A stretch of DNA of 64,000 nucleotides. Origin: Fimbriimonadaceae bacterium. Lineage in GTDB: Bacteria > Armatimonadota > Fimbriimonadia > Fimbriimonadales > Fimbriimonadaceae. The notes under the pieces are model-generated. The model did not search any database. It was not told the origin of the DNA and saw only the letters and a program-made list of their open reading frames with translations. The translations under genes were made by a program, and so were the position numbers. Location: assembly GCA_019187105.1 (NCBI GenBank), contig JABAQM010000001.1, positions 248,001-312,000 of the forward strand. The letters are read 5' to 3'. Numbering within the stretch: the stretch's first letter is position 1; each line of letters begins with the position of its first letter. Below, in pieces: positions 22,231 through 28,235 of this stretch.

Positions 22231-22271
22231 CGGCCCTAGGGCTGATGTTTTTGAAAGACGGAGGACAATTC

Positions 22272-25200
22272 ATGATTACTTGGATGGCATGGGCCGCCCT
22301 GGCCACGGGCGCCGACCTGCATGCGCTCCCGGACTTTCGCCGCGTTGACGAGCTTATCGTCGGCCGCGAATCCCGAGCTCGCATCGAGGGTCGCGCAAAC
22401 TGCTACGACTTCTCTTCCCAATACAACGTTGCTCTGGCCGAGGGCCGAAACGGGGATTTTGCGTTGGCATGGGAGAGCCGACGCCAAAACAAGGGCCTTT
22501 CGGGCGTCTATTGGCGGTCGTTTGACCGAAACGGAGAGCCGCTAAGCGCCGAACAGCGCACGACGCAAACGACCGATTTTCCGCAGGAGACCCCTTCGAT
22601 CGCGTATTCCGGCAAGGACTTTAGAGTCTCTTATTCAGCCCGAAACCGCGACCAGGAGCCGCAAACCGTACATCTGCATGACGCACGGCCAGACGGCCCC
22701 GTAAAGGGCCACAAGTCCAACCCGTTGGTTGTCTCCAACGGTGACGGCCGGTCAGCGATGGTCTGGCTCGGCGAGGTCGGCCACTTACAGACCCGGGTGT
22801 TCGCCCGTCTCGTGGATAAGGAGGGCAAGTTCGTCAAGGCGCCTTTTATGGTCCAGGCTAAAGGCGAAATCGCAAGCCAGCCGACGGTCGATGCAACCGA
22901 GAACGGATTTGTCGTCGCATGGCAGACGTACGATGCCAAAAGGAAGCCTGCAGGACTTTATGCGCGGCACTTCGACTGGAACGGCAAACCACTGACACCC
23001 GCGACCAAGGTTGCCGGAGCCGATGCGATCGAACCATCCATCGACGCCAATGGTGACCGGCTTGCGATTGGCTGGGTTCGTTCATTGCCTAACGGCAAGT
23101 TCGAGGCTCAGGCCGCTCGCTATGACCTCAGTCTACGTCGACAGGGGACCGCGATCCGCGTTGCGGGTCAGCCGGGCGACCAGAATGCAACCGCCGTCGC
23201 ACTCGATAAGAATGGCTCCCTGGCCGTTGTTTGGAATCATCGCACAGTGCTCGACACGGATCTGTTCGCTCAGGTGTTCGATGCTCAGAATCGCCCCGAA
23301 GGTCGTGCCTTTCGAGTTACTCGCGAATCAAAGGGCATGCAAGCAATGTCCGATTCGAGCGGCACAAAGCGCATTGCCATCGACAACGGCTGGCTGCTCG
23401 TGGCGTGGAACGGTAACGCCAACTTAGGCGATCCGACGTCCGCAAACTTTACTCGCATCGCACTCGACGACACGGTCACACTCGATCAATCCGTGGTGGC
23501 GGAGATCAATCGCGCAACGGACAGACTTCCGAAGCCGGCTGCATTCAAGGGCATTCCCCAGCTTGTGGTCGACATGGCCGTCACAACTAACACCGCTGAC
23601 CCGCACGATCCTCCGATCAGCGATTACAAGAACGTTAAGCACCCATGGGATGTCGAGGTTCCGATGGCGAACGGCGGATTCAACGCTTACAGCCAAACGA
23701 GCTTCACTCCGCCCGATATCAATCTTTCCGTTGGTCCTGAGTGGATCGTGGTAACGGTGAACGACGGGATCGGCTTCTATAAGAAGGACGGCACCCAGAC
23801 CTACACCAACAACATGCGGCAAACCAACGGCTTTTGGGGCCAGCTTGCCGCATCCGACAACTTCATCTACGACCCGGAAACGTTCTACGATCGTATTTCC
23901 GGCCGCTTCTTCGTTATGGCGACACAAGGCGCCGGCACTAGCTCGAACTCGGCCGCTCTTGTTGGCGTGTCCGACGACGGCAATCCCAACGGAACGTGGT
24001 ACCTCTACCGGTTCCTGACTACTGGACTGGCCGGCAACTTCTTCGACTCACCAAACTTTGGCGTCGACCACAACGTTCTGTATGTGACGGGCGACGGCTT
24101 TGGCCTCGGGTCCAACTATCCGGTGTATTGCATAGAGAAGGCACCGCTTCTTTCGGGCCAAAACCCATCGATTATCAAGTCGACCACGTTGACAACTTCC
24201 ACGCAAAGCGCCGGCATTCCGCAGGTCCAAGACAGCGCGAACAGCCGGTTCTACATGATCGAGCATAAGGAGGCCGGTACCAACACCAGTGTCGATGTCA
24301 TCGCATTGAAGGATCCGCTTGTGAATCCGACGTTCCAGCGGTTTACGCTGACGGTTCCGAGCTACGGGCCGCCTGGAGACATGCCACAGCAAGGATCCAG
24401 TTCTCGTGTCGAGAGCTTCGACGCACGGCTGTGGAGCACGAAGTGGCGCAATAACCATCTTTGGGCTACCCACCACGTCAACTCTTCACGCACGGTGGGC
24501 CGCTGGTATCAGATCGACCTCAATGGCTGGCCGACTTCGGGCAATAACCCGATTCTCGTTCAGTCCGGCAATGCAGATCCGGGTGGCTCGATCTGGATCA
24601 CTTTCCCTGCGATCGCGGTGGACGACGCCAACAACATGGCGGTTGCCTATGCTCGAGGCGCCACTACCGAGTTCTACTCGGGCGGCCACGCCTTCCGGCG
24701 GTCAACCGACGCGCTTGGAACCATCGGCAACTACACGATCGACAAGACGTCGACCGGATCCTATACGGCCGGTCGTTGGGGCGACTATAGCGGCTGCGAC
24801 TCCGACCCGGCCTACCCGGGCTTGATGTGGGGCGCAACCGAATGGGCCGAAGGCGGCAGTTGGCGCGTCTGGGTTCAACCGTTCTACGTCACCAATCAGC
24901 TGTGGCCGCTCGCATTCACGACGATCCGGGGCTCGGTTCAATCCGGGGACGTGAAGTCCCTCATCGGAGATGACGGCAACAACCTCGTCCACCGAAGCAC
25001 GATCCGGCTGAACAGCAACGACCCCTTTATCAGCGTCGAGCTGGCAACGGCTACGTTCAATCGCGGGCAGGCTTCAGCGAACGTTGTCTTCAACTACAAC
25101 GTGGACCAGGCCGGCTTCCGGCTGGAAACGGATCTGTTCGACCACTCCGCGAACCAGTGGATCAACATCGATTCGCGAGTGGCGAGCACCAGTGACACAA

Positions 25201-25349
25201 CGATCACTCTTCCCGTGGCGAACCCGACAAACTATGTCCGAAGCACCGATGGCCGCATCATGGCGCGCTACCGCGTGGTCGCAAACGGTCCGGTAGCCAC
25301 GTCCACGGTTCGAATCTTCGTCGACCGCTGGGCCTGGGTCGAGAACTAG
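22272..25349 (+). CDS. Large secreted protein with propeller-like repeats
   Basis: About 1025 aa from ATG 22272, which has GGAGG 7 nt upstream. A short hydrophobic start (MITWMAWAALATGADL) serves as the export signal. Residues about 30-390 contain repeated FALAWESR, VYWRSFDRNGEPLS, FVVAWQTYDAK and ARHFDWNGKPL units, like blades of a beta-propeller. The second half has ISGRFFVMATQ, GVSDDGNPNGTWYLYRF and WGDYSGCDSDPAYPGLMWG, a pattern I have seen in secreted proteins of unknown role. It has no catalytic motif and is followed by a strong terminator. Confidence 0.78.
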   Translation: MITWMAWAALATGADLHALPDFRRVDELIVGRESRARIEGRANCYDFSSQYNVALAEGRNGDFALAWESRRQNKGLSGVYWRSFDRNGEPLSAEQRTTQTTDFPQETPSIAYSGKDFRVSYSARNRDQEPQTVHLHDARPDGPVKGHKSNPLVVSNGDGRSAMVWLGEVGHLQTRVFARLVDKEGKFVKAPFMVQAKGEIASQPTVDATENGFVVAWQTYDAKRKPAGLYARHFDWNGKPLTPATKVAGADAIEPSIDANGDRLAIGWVRSLPNGKFEAQAARYDLSLRRQGTAIRVAGQPGDQNATAVALDKNGSLAVVWNHRTVLDTDLFAQVFDAQNRPEGRAFRVTRESKGMQAMSDSSGTKRIAIDNGWLLVAWNGNANLGDPTSANFTRIALDDTVTLDQSVVAEINRATDRLPKPAAFKGIPQLVVDMAVTTNTADPHDPPISDYKNVKHPWDVEVPMANGGFNAYSQTSFTPPDINLSVGPEWIVVTVNDGIGFYKKDGTQTYTNNMRQTNGFWGQLAASDNFIYDPETFYDRISGRFFVMATQGAGTSSNSAALVGVSDDGNPNGTWYLYRFLTTGLAGNFFDSPNFGVDHNVLYVTGDGFGLGSNYPVYCIEKAPLLSGQNPSIIKSTTLTTSTQSAGIPQVQDSANSRFYMIEHKEAGTNTSVDVIALKDPLVNPTFQRFTLTVPSYGPPGDMPQQGSSSRVESFDARLWSTKWRNNHLWATHHVNSSRTVGRWYQIDLNGWPTSGNNPILVQSGNADPGGSIWITFPAIAVDDANNMAVAYARGATTEFYSGGHAFRRSTDALGTIGNYTIDKTSTGSYTAGRWGDYSGCDSDPAYPGLMWGATEWAEGGSWRVWVQPFYVTNQLWPLAFTTIRGSVQSGDVKSLIGDDGNNLVHRSTIRLNSNDPFISVELATATFNRGQASANVVFNYNVDQAGFRLETDLFDHSANQWINIDSRVASTSDTTITLPVANPTNYVRSTDGRIMARYRVVANGPVATSTVRIFVDRWAWVEN

Positions 25350-25363
25350 ACCGCAAGTCAGCC

Positions 25364-25397
25364 GGCCCCCGCTGCGACCGCGGCGGGGGCCTTTTTT
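25364..25397 (+). terminator. Rho-independent terminator
   Basis: Nine-bp GC stem GGCCCCCGC / GCGGGGGCC with a 10-nt loop, then six T, 15 nt after the stop of the secreted-protein gene. Confidence 0.92.
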
Positions 25398-25519
25398 ATG
25401 TTCCACATCACGGGCGCCATTCTGGTTTCGATGGTGGATCGCTATATTGGCCTTATCGGACATTCTCGCAGTTTTACAGGTACGAGAGGTCGCTCGAAGC
25501 GGAAAATTCCGTTCAGGTA

Positions 25520-26017
25520 ATGCGTCTTCGCGACCTCTTTACTTTGTCTGTTCCTCGTTCCACTAGCCGTCGGCGCCGCCGGGGCGCCTTCCTTATCGAC
25601 ATGGTTGTGGCCCTGTTCTTGGTGGTGCTCGCTGCCCTGTCCGTCTTGAGCCTGCAGCCCGTACTGCAGCGCGGTGAGGTCATCAGCGATCACTAAAGCA
25701 AGGCTTCGCAAATGGTGATGCGCTTGCTTGAGCATATGCAGATGCTCTCCGTGGACAACTTCGAAGGTCCCACGTTGGAGGCTCTGAACCTAATCGACGA
25801 TGGCGATGGCGAGCCGCCCTACAGCTTCACGCACATTCCGCTGGACGAAGCTTCTCGCTATAGCCCCGCCCAAGTGCTGCGAAACGCGAAGGGTTTGGTT
25901 GATTTCGACGTCCTTGCCGATGGGAGCGTTATGGTTACCGCCTCGCTTTCGTACACGAGCGCATCCGGAAAGGAACAGACTATCCAGTCTGGAACCGTAG
26001 TGGGGGCTTTTCGATGA
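25520..26017 (+). pseudogene. Prepilin-like gene interrupted by in-frame TAA
   Basis: From ATG 25520 the frame encodes a basic leader (RRRRRG), the prepilin cleavage site G^AFLID with an acidic residue at position 5, and a hydrophobic helix (MVVALFLVVLAALSVL). TAA at 25694-25696 (codon 59) stops it. The same frame then continues without a break from codon 60 to 26017, giving 165 codons. The downstream part (from MVMRLLEHMQML) could be made by re-initiation at ATG 25712. A single base change explains it. The stop overlaps the next gene's ATG (ATGA), so the operon layout is intact. Confidence 0.75.
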
Positions 26018-26589
26018 GAGTGCGCCGCAGGTCTGGTTACACGTTGGTCGAGTTGGTCGTGGGGATGTCCATCCTTGCCCTGGTGATGCTGGGGACCATG
26101 TCCATCTATGTACTTGGCGTGAGGTCGTTCAATCGCGTCGATACGGATCTCAAGATTGCCCAAGACAATGCGATCGGCGTTCGAAAGGTCACCGAAGCAC
26201 TGCGCGAAGCCGTATCAATCCAGATATCGCTTGGTGGCAACTCCATTACCTACTTCCTGCCGAAGTTATCGGACGAGGAAGACGAAACCACTGGCGAATA
26301 CGAGTACGTGGAGCCGATCGTGTCAGACGGCATCGCTCGAACGTTTTCGGTTACGTCGAGTGGCAAGTTAGTCGATTCCGAAACCGGCAGGGTGCTCATT
26401 CGCGATTTATACGCCAAGGACCCAGATCCAAAGTCGAGTCAATACAACAAGCTGTATGCACCGTTCTCGCTGACTACGATTGGGTCCCGCAGAGCGGTTA
26501 CGGTCAACTTCATTACGCGGGCCGAAGCGGGCGCGTCGGAACGCTATAAGCGCATGAAAAGCACGGTGATCATTCGAAACAGCCCATGA
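26014..26589 (+). CDS. Prepilin-type N-terminal cleavage/methylation protein (pseudopilin)
   Basis: A 191 aa protein with a class III signal: basic leader RVRRRSG, then YTLVELVVGMSILALVMLG, with Glu at position 5 after the cleaved Gly. This is read by a prepilin peptidase and assembled into type IV pilus or type II secretion pseudopili. The C-terminal globular domain is unassigned. It overlaps both neighbours by ATGA (26014-26017 and 26586-26589), so the three genes form one translational unit. No assembly ATPase or peptidase is nearby. Confidence 0.87.
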   Translation: MRVRRRSGYTLVELVVGMSILALVMLGTMSIYVLGVRSFNRVDTDLKIAQDNAIGVRKVTEALREAVSIQISLGGNSITYFLPKLSDEEDETTGEYEYVEPIVSDGIARTFSVTSSGKLVDSETGRVLIRDLYAKDPDPKSSQYNKLYAPFSLTTIGSRRAVTVNFITRAEAGASERYKRMKSTVIIRNSP

Positions 26590-28235
26590 GAAAATTTTCC
26601 AAGCGCCAAGGCATGACATCCCTGATCGTCCTGCTGTTCATGTTCGTGATGCTGCTCTTCCTGCTCGGTGCCGCGTCATACGCCGCGCATTCGATGCGAC
26701 GGTCGTCCCGGGATCGCACCGAAGTCCAGGCCTTTCAGGTCGCCCAATCGGTCCTCGAGTACCAAGCCGCCCTAAGCTACGCTCAAGCCAAGGCAGACTA
26801 CGGCATCTTCAAGGCTGCTTCTGAGGATCATTCCCAGGTAGCAGGGTCCATCTCTCCGGGAGCAACCGGCACTGCCGTCGTGCTTCCCGTAACGTCTGAT
26901 CCGACTCGGGCATGGGTTACGTCGACGGCAACCTACGCGGGGAAGACACGCAGCCTGCGAACGCTGCTTTCGACCAAGGACGTATCCATCTGGAACAACG
27001 CGATTTTCGCAGGTACGGGGGCATCTGGTCAATCCATTAACGGAAATGTCGACATTCGCGGTTCCGTTCACATTCTCGGGGATGGAGAGCCATACTCCGA
27101 CCTGAACGGCAACGGTGTTTGGGACGACCAAGAATCCTATACAGATGCCAATGGAAACGGCGTTTGGGACCCGGGCGAGAAGTTCATCGACGAAAATGCA
27201 GACGGCGTATGGAACTCTGCGGAGCCGTATAACGACACCAACAAAAACGGCTATTACGACCCGCCTTTAACGACAACCGACCTTAGCAGCGATATGTCGG
27301 GTACCGCGCATATTGGTAACAACTATTACAACATGCCAGCGACCCTCAAGGGACTCGTACCTCCTCCACCGCAGGTCAACGGCAAGGAGTCGCTGTCCAC
27401 AGAAGTTCGTGTCAAGCACGGGAAGGTCGCTCTCAGCGGTTCGGCGACCATTGGAGAAACCGATCCCGACGGGAGTTCGAAGGGAGCGGTCGATGGCGTC
27501 TTTGTCAACGACGGCTGGGGAGGCAACAAAGGTGCAACCAACGTAACGAGCGACAATGGCACGGACAATGCCTATGATCTCGGACACCTTGATGTCGGCT
27601 TCCCGATCATCGACGGTATCGGGGCCGAAGAATATGTCGACAAGAATGGCGTGACTTGGCCGTCGCTAAAGAACTACTACGATAACAATGCACTCGTAGT
27701 GCCGATCACTAAGATTACGAACAAGACCGACAACTTCTCTTACACGGATGCAAAGGGTAATTCGATAACCTACACGAAGAAGTCTGGTGCGAATCCTGCA
27801 AAGCTCGTCATCAACGGAGTTGTAAAAATTAACGGCAACCTATTGATCGACGACCTCGATGAGCTGCGCTACACGGGGCGTGGCACCATTTATACGAGTG
27901 GAAACCTACAGGTTGGAAACAATCTGCTACCGCTCGCCGGAAAGAAGTTTCCGACCGACACCGCCCTTGGCCTTGTCGCGGGAGGCAACATGGGCCTTGC
28001 GACCGGACCAGGAGACTCCCAACTTTCCCTCGCGGGAGCCTTTTACGCCATGGGCACGATCCAGAGCGCCAAGCAAAATCAGATAGCAGGCACCTTTGTG
28101 GCGAACTTCTTCGACATGGGAAAGAACGTCCCCAACATCTACCAGGTCCCGACGTTGCGCTATAACATGCCTCCGGCGATGCCCGGTGACGAACCGATCG
28201 TAACTCTACGCGTCCGTTCCTGGCGCACCCGTTAA
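26586..28235 (+). CDS. PilX-like pilus-associated protein with tandem EF-hand-like loops
   Basis: A 549 aa protein with an N-terminal membrane helix (LIVLLFMFVMLLFLLGAAS) like PilX-type minor pilins, but without a Glu-5 prepilin site. Residues about 166-226 hold four 15-residue repeats (DLNGNGVWDDQE, DANGNGVWDPGE, DENADGVWNSAE, DTNKNGYYDP) that fit the DxNxNGxxDxxE calcium loop of EF-hands/dockerins. A right-handed beta-helix-like C-terminus follows (LVINGVVKINGNLLIDDL). It is the third gene of the pilin-type operon; calcium binding is an inference from the loop residues. Confidence 0.8.
   Translation: MRKFSKRQGMTSLIVLLFMFVMLLFLLGAASYAAHSMRRSSRDRTEVQAFQVAQSVLEYQAALSYAQAKADYGIFKAASEDHSQVAGSISPGATGTAVVLPVTSDPTRAWVTSTATYAGKTRSLRTLLSTKDVSIWNNAIFAGTGASGQSINGNVDIRGSVHILGDGEPYSDLNGNGVWDDQESYTDANGNGVWDPGEKFIDENADGVWNSAEPYNDTNKNGYYDPPLTTTDLSSDMSGTAHIGNNYYNMPATLKGLVPPPPQVNGKESLSTEVRVKHGKVALSGSATIGETDPDGSSKGAVDGVFVNDGWGGNKGATNVTSDNGTDNAYDLGHLDVGFPIIDGIGAEEYVDKNGVTWPSLKNYYDNNALVVPITKITNKTDNFSYTDAKGNSITYTKKSGANPAKLVINGVVKINGNLLIDDLDELRYTGRGTIYTSGNLQVGNNLLPLAGKKFPTDTALGLVAGGNMGLATGPGDSQLSLAGAFYAMGTIQSAKQNQIAGTFVANFFDMGKNVPNIYQVPTLRYNMPPAMPGDEPIVTLRVRSWRTR

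Follow-up and report, generated by a model that had tools for sequence, protein, structure and literature searches.

A probable recent nonsense mutation in a PilV-like minor pilin gene of a Fimbriimonadaceae bacterium

What is to be made of a pilin gene that carries an in-frame stop codon while the genes coupled to it downstream appear intact? The question is raised by a locus in a 64,000-nucleotide stretch (the window) of a Fimbriimonadaceae genome (GenBank assembly GCA_019187105.1, contig JABAQM010000001.1, positions 248,001 to 312,000 of the forward strand), for which a sequence-only reading had offered a fresh nonsense mutation, phase-type variation, a sequence error, or re-initiation with split products. 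Our analysis favors, with a probability of roughly 0.63, a recent nonsense mutation that would interrupt the PilV-like gene at the head of a conserved operon of three pilin genes. Most likely the stop is an ordinary recent loss-of-function mutation, or possibly a sequencing error, with no new mechanism.

The interrupted frame and its homologs

The frame lies on the forward strand. It opens at ATG 25520, runs for 58 sense codons to a TAA at 25694-25696, continues for a further 106 sense codons, and ends at a TGA (26015-26017) that forms an ATGA overlap with the ATG at 26014 of the next ORF (26014-26589). The sequence-only reading had its coordinates right. Its 165-codon pilin holds when the stop position is counted, and its figure of 107 open codons after the TAA includes the final TGA. 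The 5' part (25520-25693) encodes a 22-residue basic leader, a prepilin-type site (residues 17-27, RRRRRG|AFLID; Asp at +5), and a hydrophobic N-terminal helix whose maximal 19-residue Kyte-Doolittle mean is 2.85; the 3' part (25697-26017) encodes the C-terminal part. A coding model with three-base periodicity, trained on 464 kb from the same genome, keeps a single frame from 25464 to 26004, straight across the TAA. The coding score is weak for the part before the stop taken alone (2.3 bits) and reaches 13.7 bits after it.

Used as a query, the part after the stop has matches in 20 of 61 genomes, its own included. Upstream extension of the homologous frames takes them through the stop position with no gap and shows that they, too, have the leader, the site, and the helix. 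All 21 aligned homologs have a sense codon in the column of the stop, and position +5 is Asp in 17 of them and Glu in four. Since the homologs are open across the stop position and the coding model keeps one frame, the interrupted frame appears to be more than a chance arrangement, and the alignments identify its two halves as one PilV-like minor pilin, derived from one ancestral frame. The nearest homologs compared over the part after the stop are 60% (G004) and 56% (G088) identical to it, the latter belonging to Armatimonadetes bacterium SZAS-4, of the same family as the window genome. An order-wide search, in which the alignment of homologs served as the profile and at most 34 first-look candidates were scored per genome, listed 117 matches in 90 of 113 genomes, paralogs included. 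None of the other 116 listed matches has an in-frame stop; that of the window is the single exception. Partial matches in two genomes (G087 and G061) start past the stop position and run into contig ends, and another, in G051, covers 3-62.

The name PilV-like rests on these homologs, because the window's own frame reaches no pilin model. Among the 22 members of the alignment, 11 match the NCBIfam PilV model TIGR02523 at E ≤0.01 (best 2.7e-7) and five match Pfam N_methyl at the same threshold. The window's frame matches neither of these nor any Pfam pilin model, and its only hit is to ComGE (E 0.0035; 17.4 bits, where the cut-off is 49). A profile search of solved structures gave a best match at E 0.056; three of its seven matches, that one included, are pilins or geopilins.

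The operon around the frame

Downstream of the frame lie two further open genes on the same strand, each entered through an ATGA overlap. The second gene of the run (26014-26589, 191 aa) matches Pfam N_methyl at E 5.1e-7 and can be called PilW-like from its place and length only; the third (26586-28235, 549 aa) is called PilX-like on the same grounds, its match to PilX_N (E 0.087) being below the cut-off. Upstream, a candidate intrinsic terminator on the forward strand (25364-25397; a 12-pair stem and a run of six T) is the strongest of three terminator-like sites in the region, where 1.1 would be expected. It sits after an ORF of 1034 aa (22245-25349) and separates it from the pilin genes, which are thus probably a transcription unit of their own. 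The 1034-aa ORF is without a Pfam match at E 1.

The arrangement recurs among relatives. The PilX-like gene was found in 17 of the 61 genomes, the own genome included, and the pilV-like gene is present in all 17, so it would seem normally to accompany its operon. The two genes are near each other on a single contig in 15 of the 16 relatives and on separate contigs in the remaining one (G031). The ATGA end of the pilV-like gene is shared by 14 of the 21 homologs. On this comparative evidence, we regard the pilV-like gene as opening a three-gene pilin operon that is conserved in Armatimonadota. Some relatives show additional copies: two PilX-like genes adjoin the operon at G004:C2:352998-356753, and G050 (contig C14) has more than one PilX-like match, this genome also having two pilV-like matches.

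Age of the stop and its explanation

The rate of change of the frame was compared with that of its neighbors on a fixed tree, built from the two downstream proteins of 13 genomes (the window genome and 12 relatives; five operon-bearing genomes, G031, G040, G042, G046, and G050, were omitted as incomplete or distant, the first four having been among those compared for identity). The terminal branch of the window genome takes up 0.071 of total tree length for the pilV-like frame (0.053-0.098 in 100 bootstraps) and 0.069 for the downstream pair combined (individually, 0.062 and 0.073), so on this 13-genome tree there is no accelerated evolution of the interrupted frame. Fifteen alignment columns are common to 85% or more of the 21 homologs; the window's frame agrees with them in 13 and differs in two, and no other decay is visible in the frame. 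The lack of acceleration and the retained columns indicate that the stop is either very young or not real. Under the assumption that the gene is normally strongly constrained, with a non-synonymous/synonymous ratio near 0.1, the data allow neutral drift over at most about 5% of the terminal branch. Only rough bounds can be set on the age of the lesion, given the distance of those nearest homologs and a support of 47 for the branching of the window genome.

A recent nonsense mutation, already among the options of the sequence-only reading, emerges as the best supported of them, given that the other 116 of 117 listed matches lack a stop and that the frame shows no rate acceleration. Under this explanation, translation would stop after 58 codons, leaving the leader and 36 residues of the N-terminal helix, with the C-terminal part missing, and such a product would probably not be a working PilV-like subunit. 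The two downstream genes would remain open both because the lesion is young and because ribosomes could still enter them, whether at start sites of their own or after re-initiating at ATG 25712. That these genes are open and coupled, which had been thought odd for a long-dead first pilin, is borne out here, and intact downstream genes are what a young lesion would leave. The fully constrained look of the gene would, however, also be expected from readthrough or from a sequencing error.

The last of these, a consensus or sequencing error in the assembly over a gene that is really intact, is in our estimation unlikely, although it is the main rival. The rest of the gene looks alive, with no rate acceleration, no other lesion seen, and a coupled end, all as an erroneous base would have it. 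Yet the assembly seems to be of good quality (3.3 Mb, two contigs, completeness 99.55), and in-frame stops are found in none of 105 family matches from the same genome (46 N_methyl, 13 T2SSE, two RF-1, and 44 ABC_tran); these stop-free matches speak for good base quality and cannot decide one position. A coding scan of 464 kb flagged one other in-frame stop, a selenocysteine-like TGA common to relatives. The scan rule flagged one of 100 in-frame stops and is weak, as it recovers just 326 of 1,984 simulated stops. The same scan left 15 of 156 direct same-strand frame switches without explanation, and an earlier codon-usage scan of the 464 kb gave 83 candidates among which broken genes were not separable from same-frame neighbors.

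A constrained gene would also be preserved if the stop were read through, by programming or by a suppressor tRNA, or if it acted as a reversible on/off switch, and coding constraint is indeed kept on both sides of the TAA. A hairpin is possible from the first base after the stop, and the genome probably recodes another stop, TGA, as selenocysteine. Against this, no UUA anticodon occurs among the 45 tRNAs read by ARAGORN, all of them with standard anticodons; the tRNA-Sec anticodon, TCA, does not read TAA; the hairpin is unremarkable (z -1.58, with 12 of 200 shuffled sequences folding equally well); and TAA is present in none of the 116 other listed matches, whereas the selenocysteine-like TGA is held in 29 of 33 matches spanning its site. 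Recoding of TAA throughout the genome was rejected, as TAA ends 97 of 377 loosely scored ORFs and both release factors are present (two RF-1 family matches). Phase variation was likewise rejected, and with it the phase-type option of the sequence-only reading: the region 25200-26300 has no direct or inverted repeats of at least 14 bases, and the 100 bases around the stop (25652-25751) have no homopolymers longer than three. We judge this whole class of explanation to be very improbable.

Lastly, the frame could be a functional split pilin, made up of a helix-only pilin and a re-initiated C-terminal domain in the manner of the split PilA of Geobacter. The possible re-initiation ORF (25712-26017, forward strand, 101 aa) starts at an ATG 15 bases after the stop, and an AAGG ends eight bases before it. 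This spacing and the AAGG make re-initiation at ATG 25712 plausible, and in this way ribosomes could pass on to the coupled gene that follows. A Met stands at this position in several intact homologs also, and the ATG thus need not have arisen for re-initiation. The proposal of re-initiation with split products stands as a mechanical possibility, while its functional side goes unsupported: the product starts MVMRLLEHMQ, its maximal 19-residue hydropathy is only 1.2 (at residue 61), and by hydropathy no membrane anchor or export signal is seen at its start. The layout is similar to that in Geobacter, a helix fragment followed by a C-terminal fragment in the same operon, and fission by an inserted stop is one of the routes proposed for the Geobacter pilins (PMC5174107). 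AlphaFold2 modeling of the G088 homolog together with the C part from the window gave a single, poor model (mean pLDDT 44), in which the stop position, after 36 mature residues, falls in a break between two helices (16-47 and 53-67); this may be a tolerable place to split. In typical pilins, helix 1 continues past 36 mature residues. In Geobacter, the break is placed in a loop after the helix, GSU1496 has 61 amino acids against the 36 mature residues of the window's helix fragment, and GSU1497 has a signal peptide (PMC5174107), whereas the window's C fragment has no hydrophobic segment at its start. No split gene is found among the 116 other listed matches, the two partial matches noted above (G087 and G061) being contig ends. 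It appears very improbable that the two fragments work together. A functional split pilin is without positive support, as are programmed readthrough and phase variation. More improbable still is a gene caught at the moment of fission with both products in use, in which case the Geobacter layout would have arisen independently in a distant phylum.

Pilin content and comparison with known systems

The coding scan of 464 kb also brought a separate observation. At L122:12909-12911 on the minus strand (about G000:C1 1,332,909, where G000 is the window genome), an in-frame TGA lies within the motif NGHPMGCT*NNG in a frame of about 380 codons. Six relatives, read directly, have a TGA at the same position of the motif, and a search gave 39 matches in 23 of 61 genomes; 33 of these matches span the site, and four of the 33 are without a TGA. 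A second such gene lies in the same genome at G000:C1:1077945-1078892, and the genome has a tRNA-Sec with anticodon TCA. The TGA-bearing frames probably represent a family of selenocysteine proteins that is widespread and has a CTU motif.

The genome is rich in pilins, with 46 N_methyl matches and 13 matches to the T2SSE ATPase family (two of the 13 below the cut-off). It also holds a second run of open pilin-type ORFs at L181:869-4188 (about G000:C1 162,868-166,187), of 115, 153, 199, and 647 aa. The first two of these match N_methyl, the order and lengths of the run resemble those of the window operon, and the second ORF, which matches the pilV-like profile, is a diverged pilV-like paralog without a stop. 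This paralog may or may not compensate for the interrupted gene. In another species of Armatimonadota, Fimbriimonas ginsengisoli, 79 pseudopilin-type genes are reported (PMC4072686). Since pilin-rich genomes are known in the phylum, it would not be unexpected for one minor pilin to be lost or to vary. A fresh nonsense allele, if that is what the stop represents, matters little in itself, as one minor pilin lost or varying in one lineage. It affects a gene that all 16 PilX-like-bearing relatives keep (one search of 61 genomes, the own genome included), and it would offer a natural knock-out bearing on the dispensability of a minor-pilin operon in a pilin-rich bacterium. Were both fragments instead made and used, they would provide an independent case of pilin gene fission.

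Among known systems, the split PilA of Geobacter (GSU1496/GSU1497, or PilA-N/PilA-C) shares with the locus a helix part and a C-terminal part encoded by neighboring ORFs of one operon, although whether the two Geobacter parts form joint natural filaments is disputed (PMC9207759). The window's arrangement differs in that its C part has no signal peptide by hydropathy and its helix part is smaller, and in that none of the listed homologs is split. With PilV-type minor pilins (TIGR02523), the locus has in common the prepilin leader and site, the hydrophobic helix, and its place as the first of three coupled pilin-type genes. It departs from them in failing to match TIGR02523 and in stopping after 58 codons; as sequenced, the window member lacks a complete frame with its C-terminal domain (TAA at 25694-25696) and is a disrupted member of the group. 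Nonsense-inactivated pilin genes exist as strain-level pseudogenes, and it is these that the locus resembles with no evident difference, having, as they do, a single in-frame stop between open flanks.
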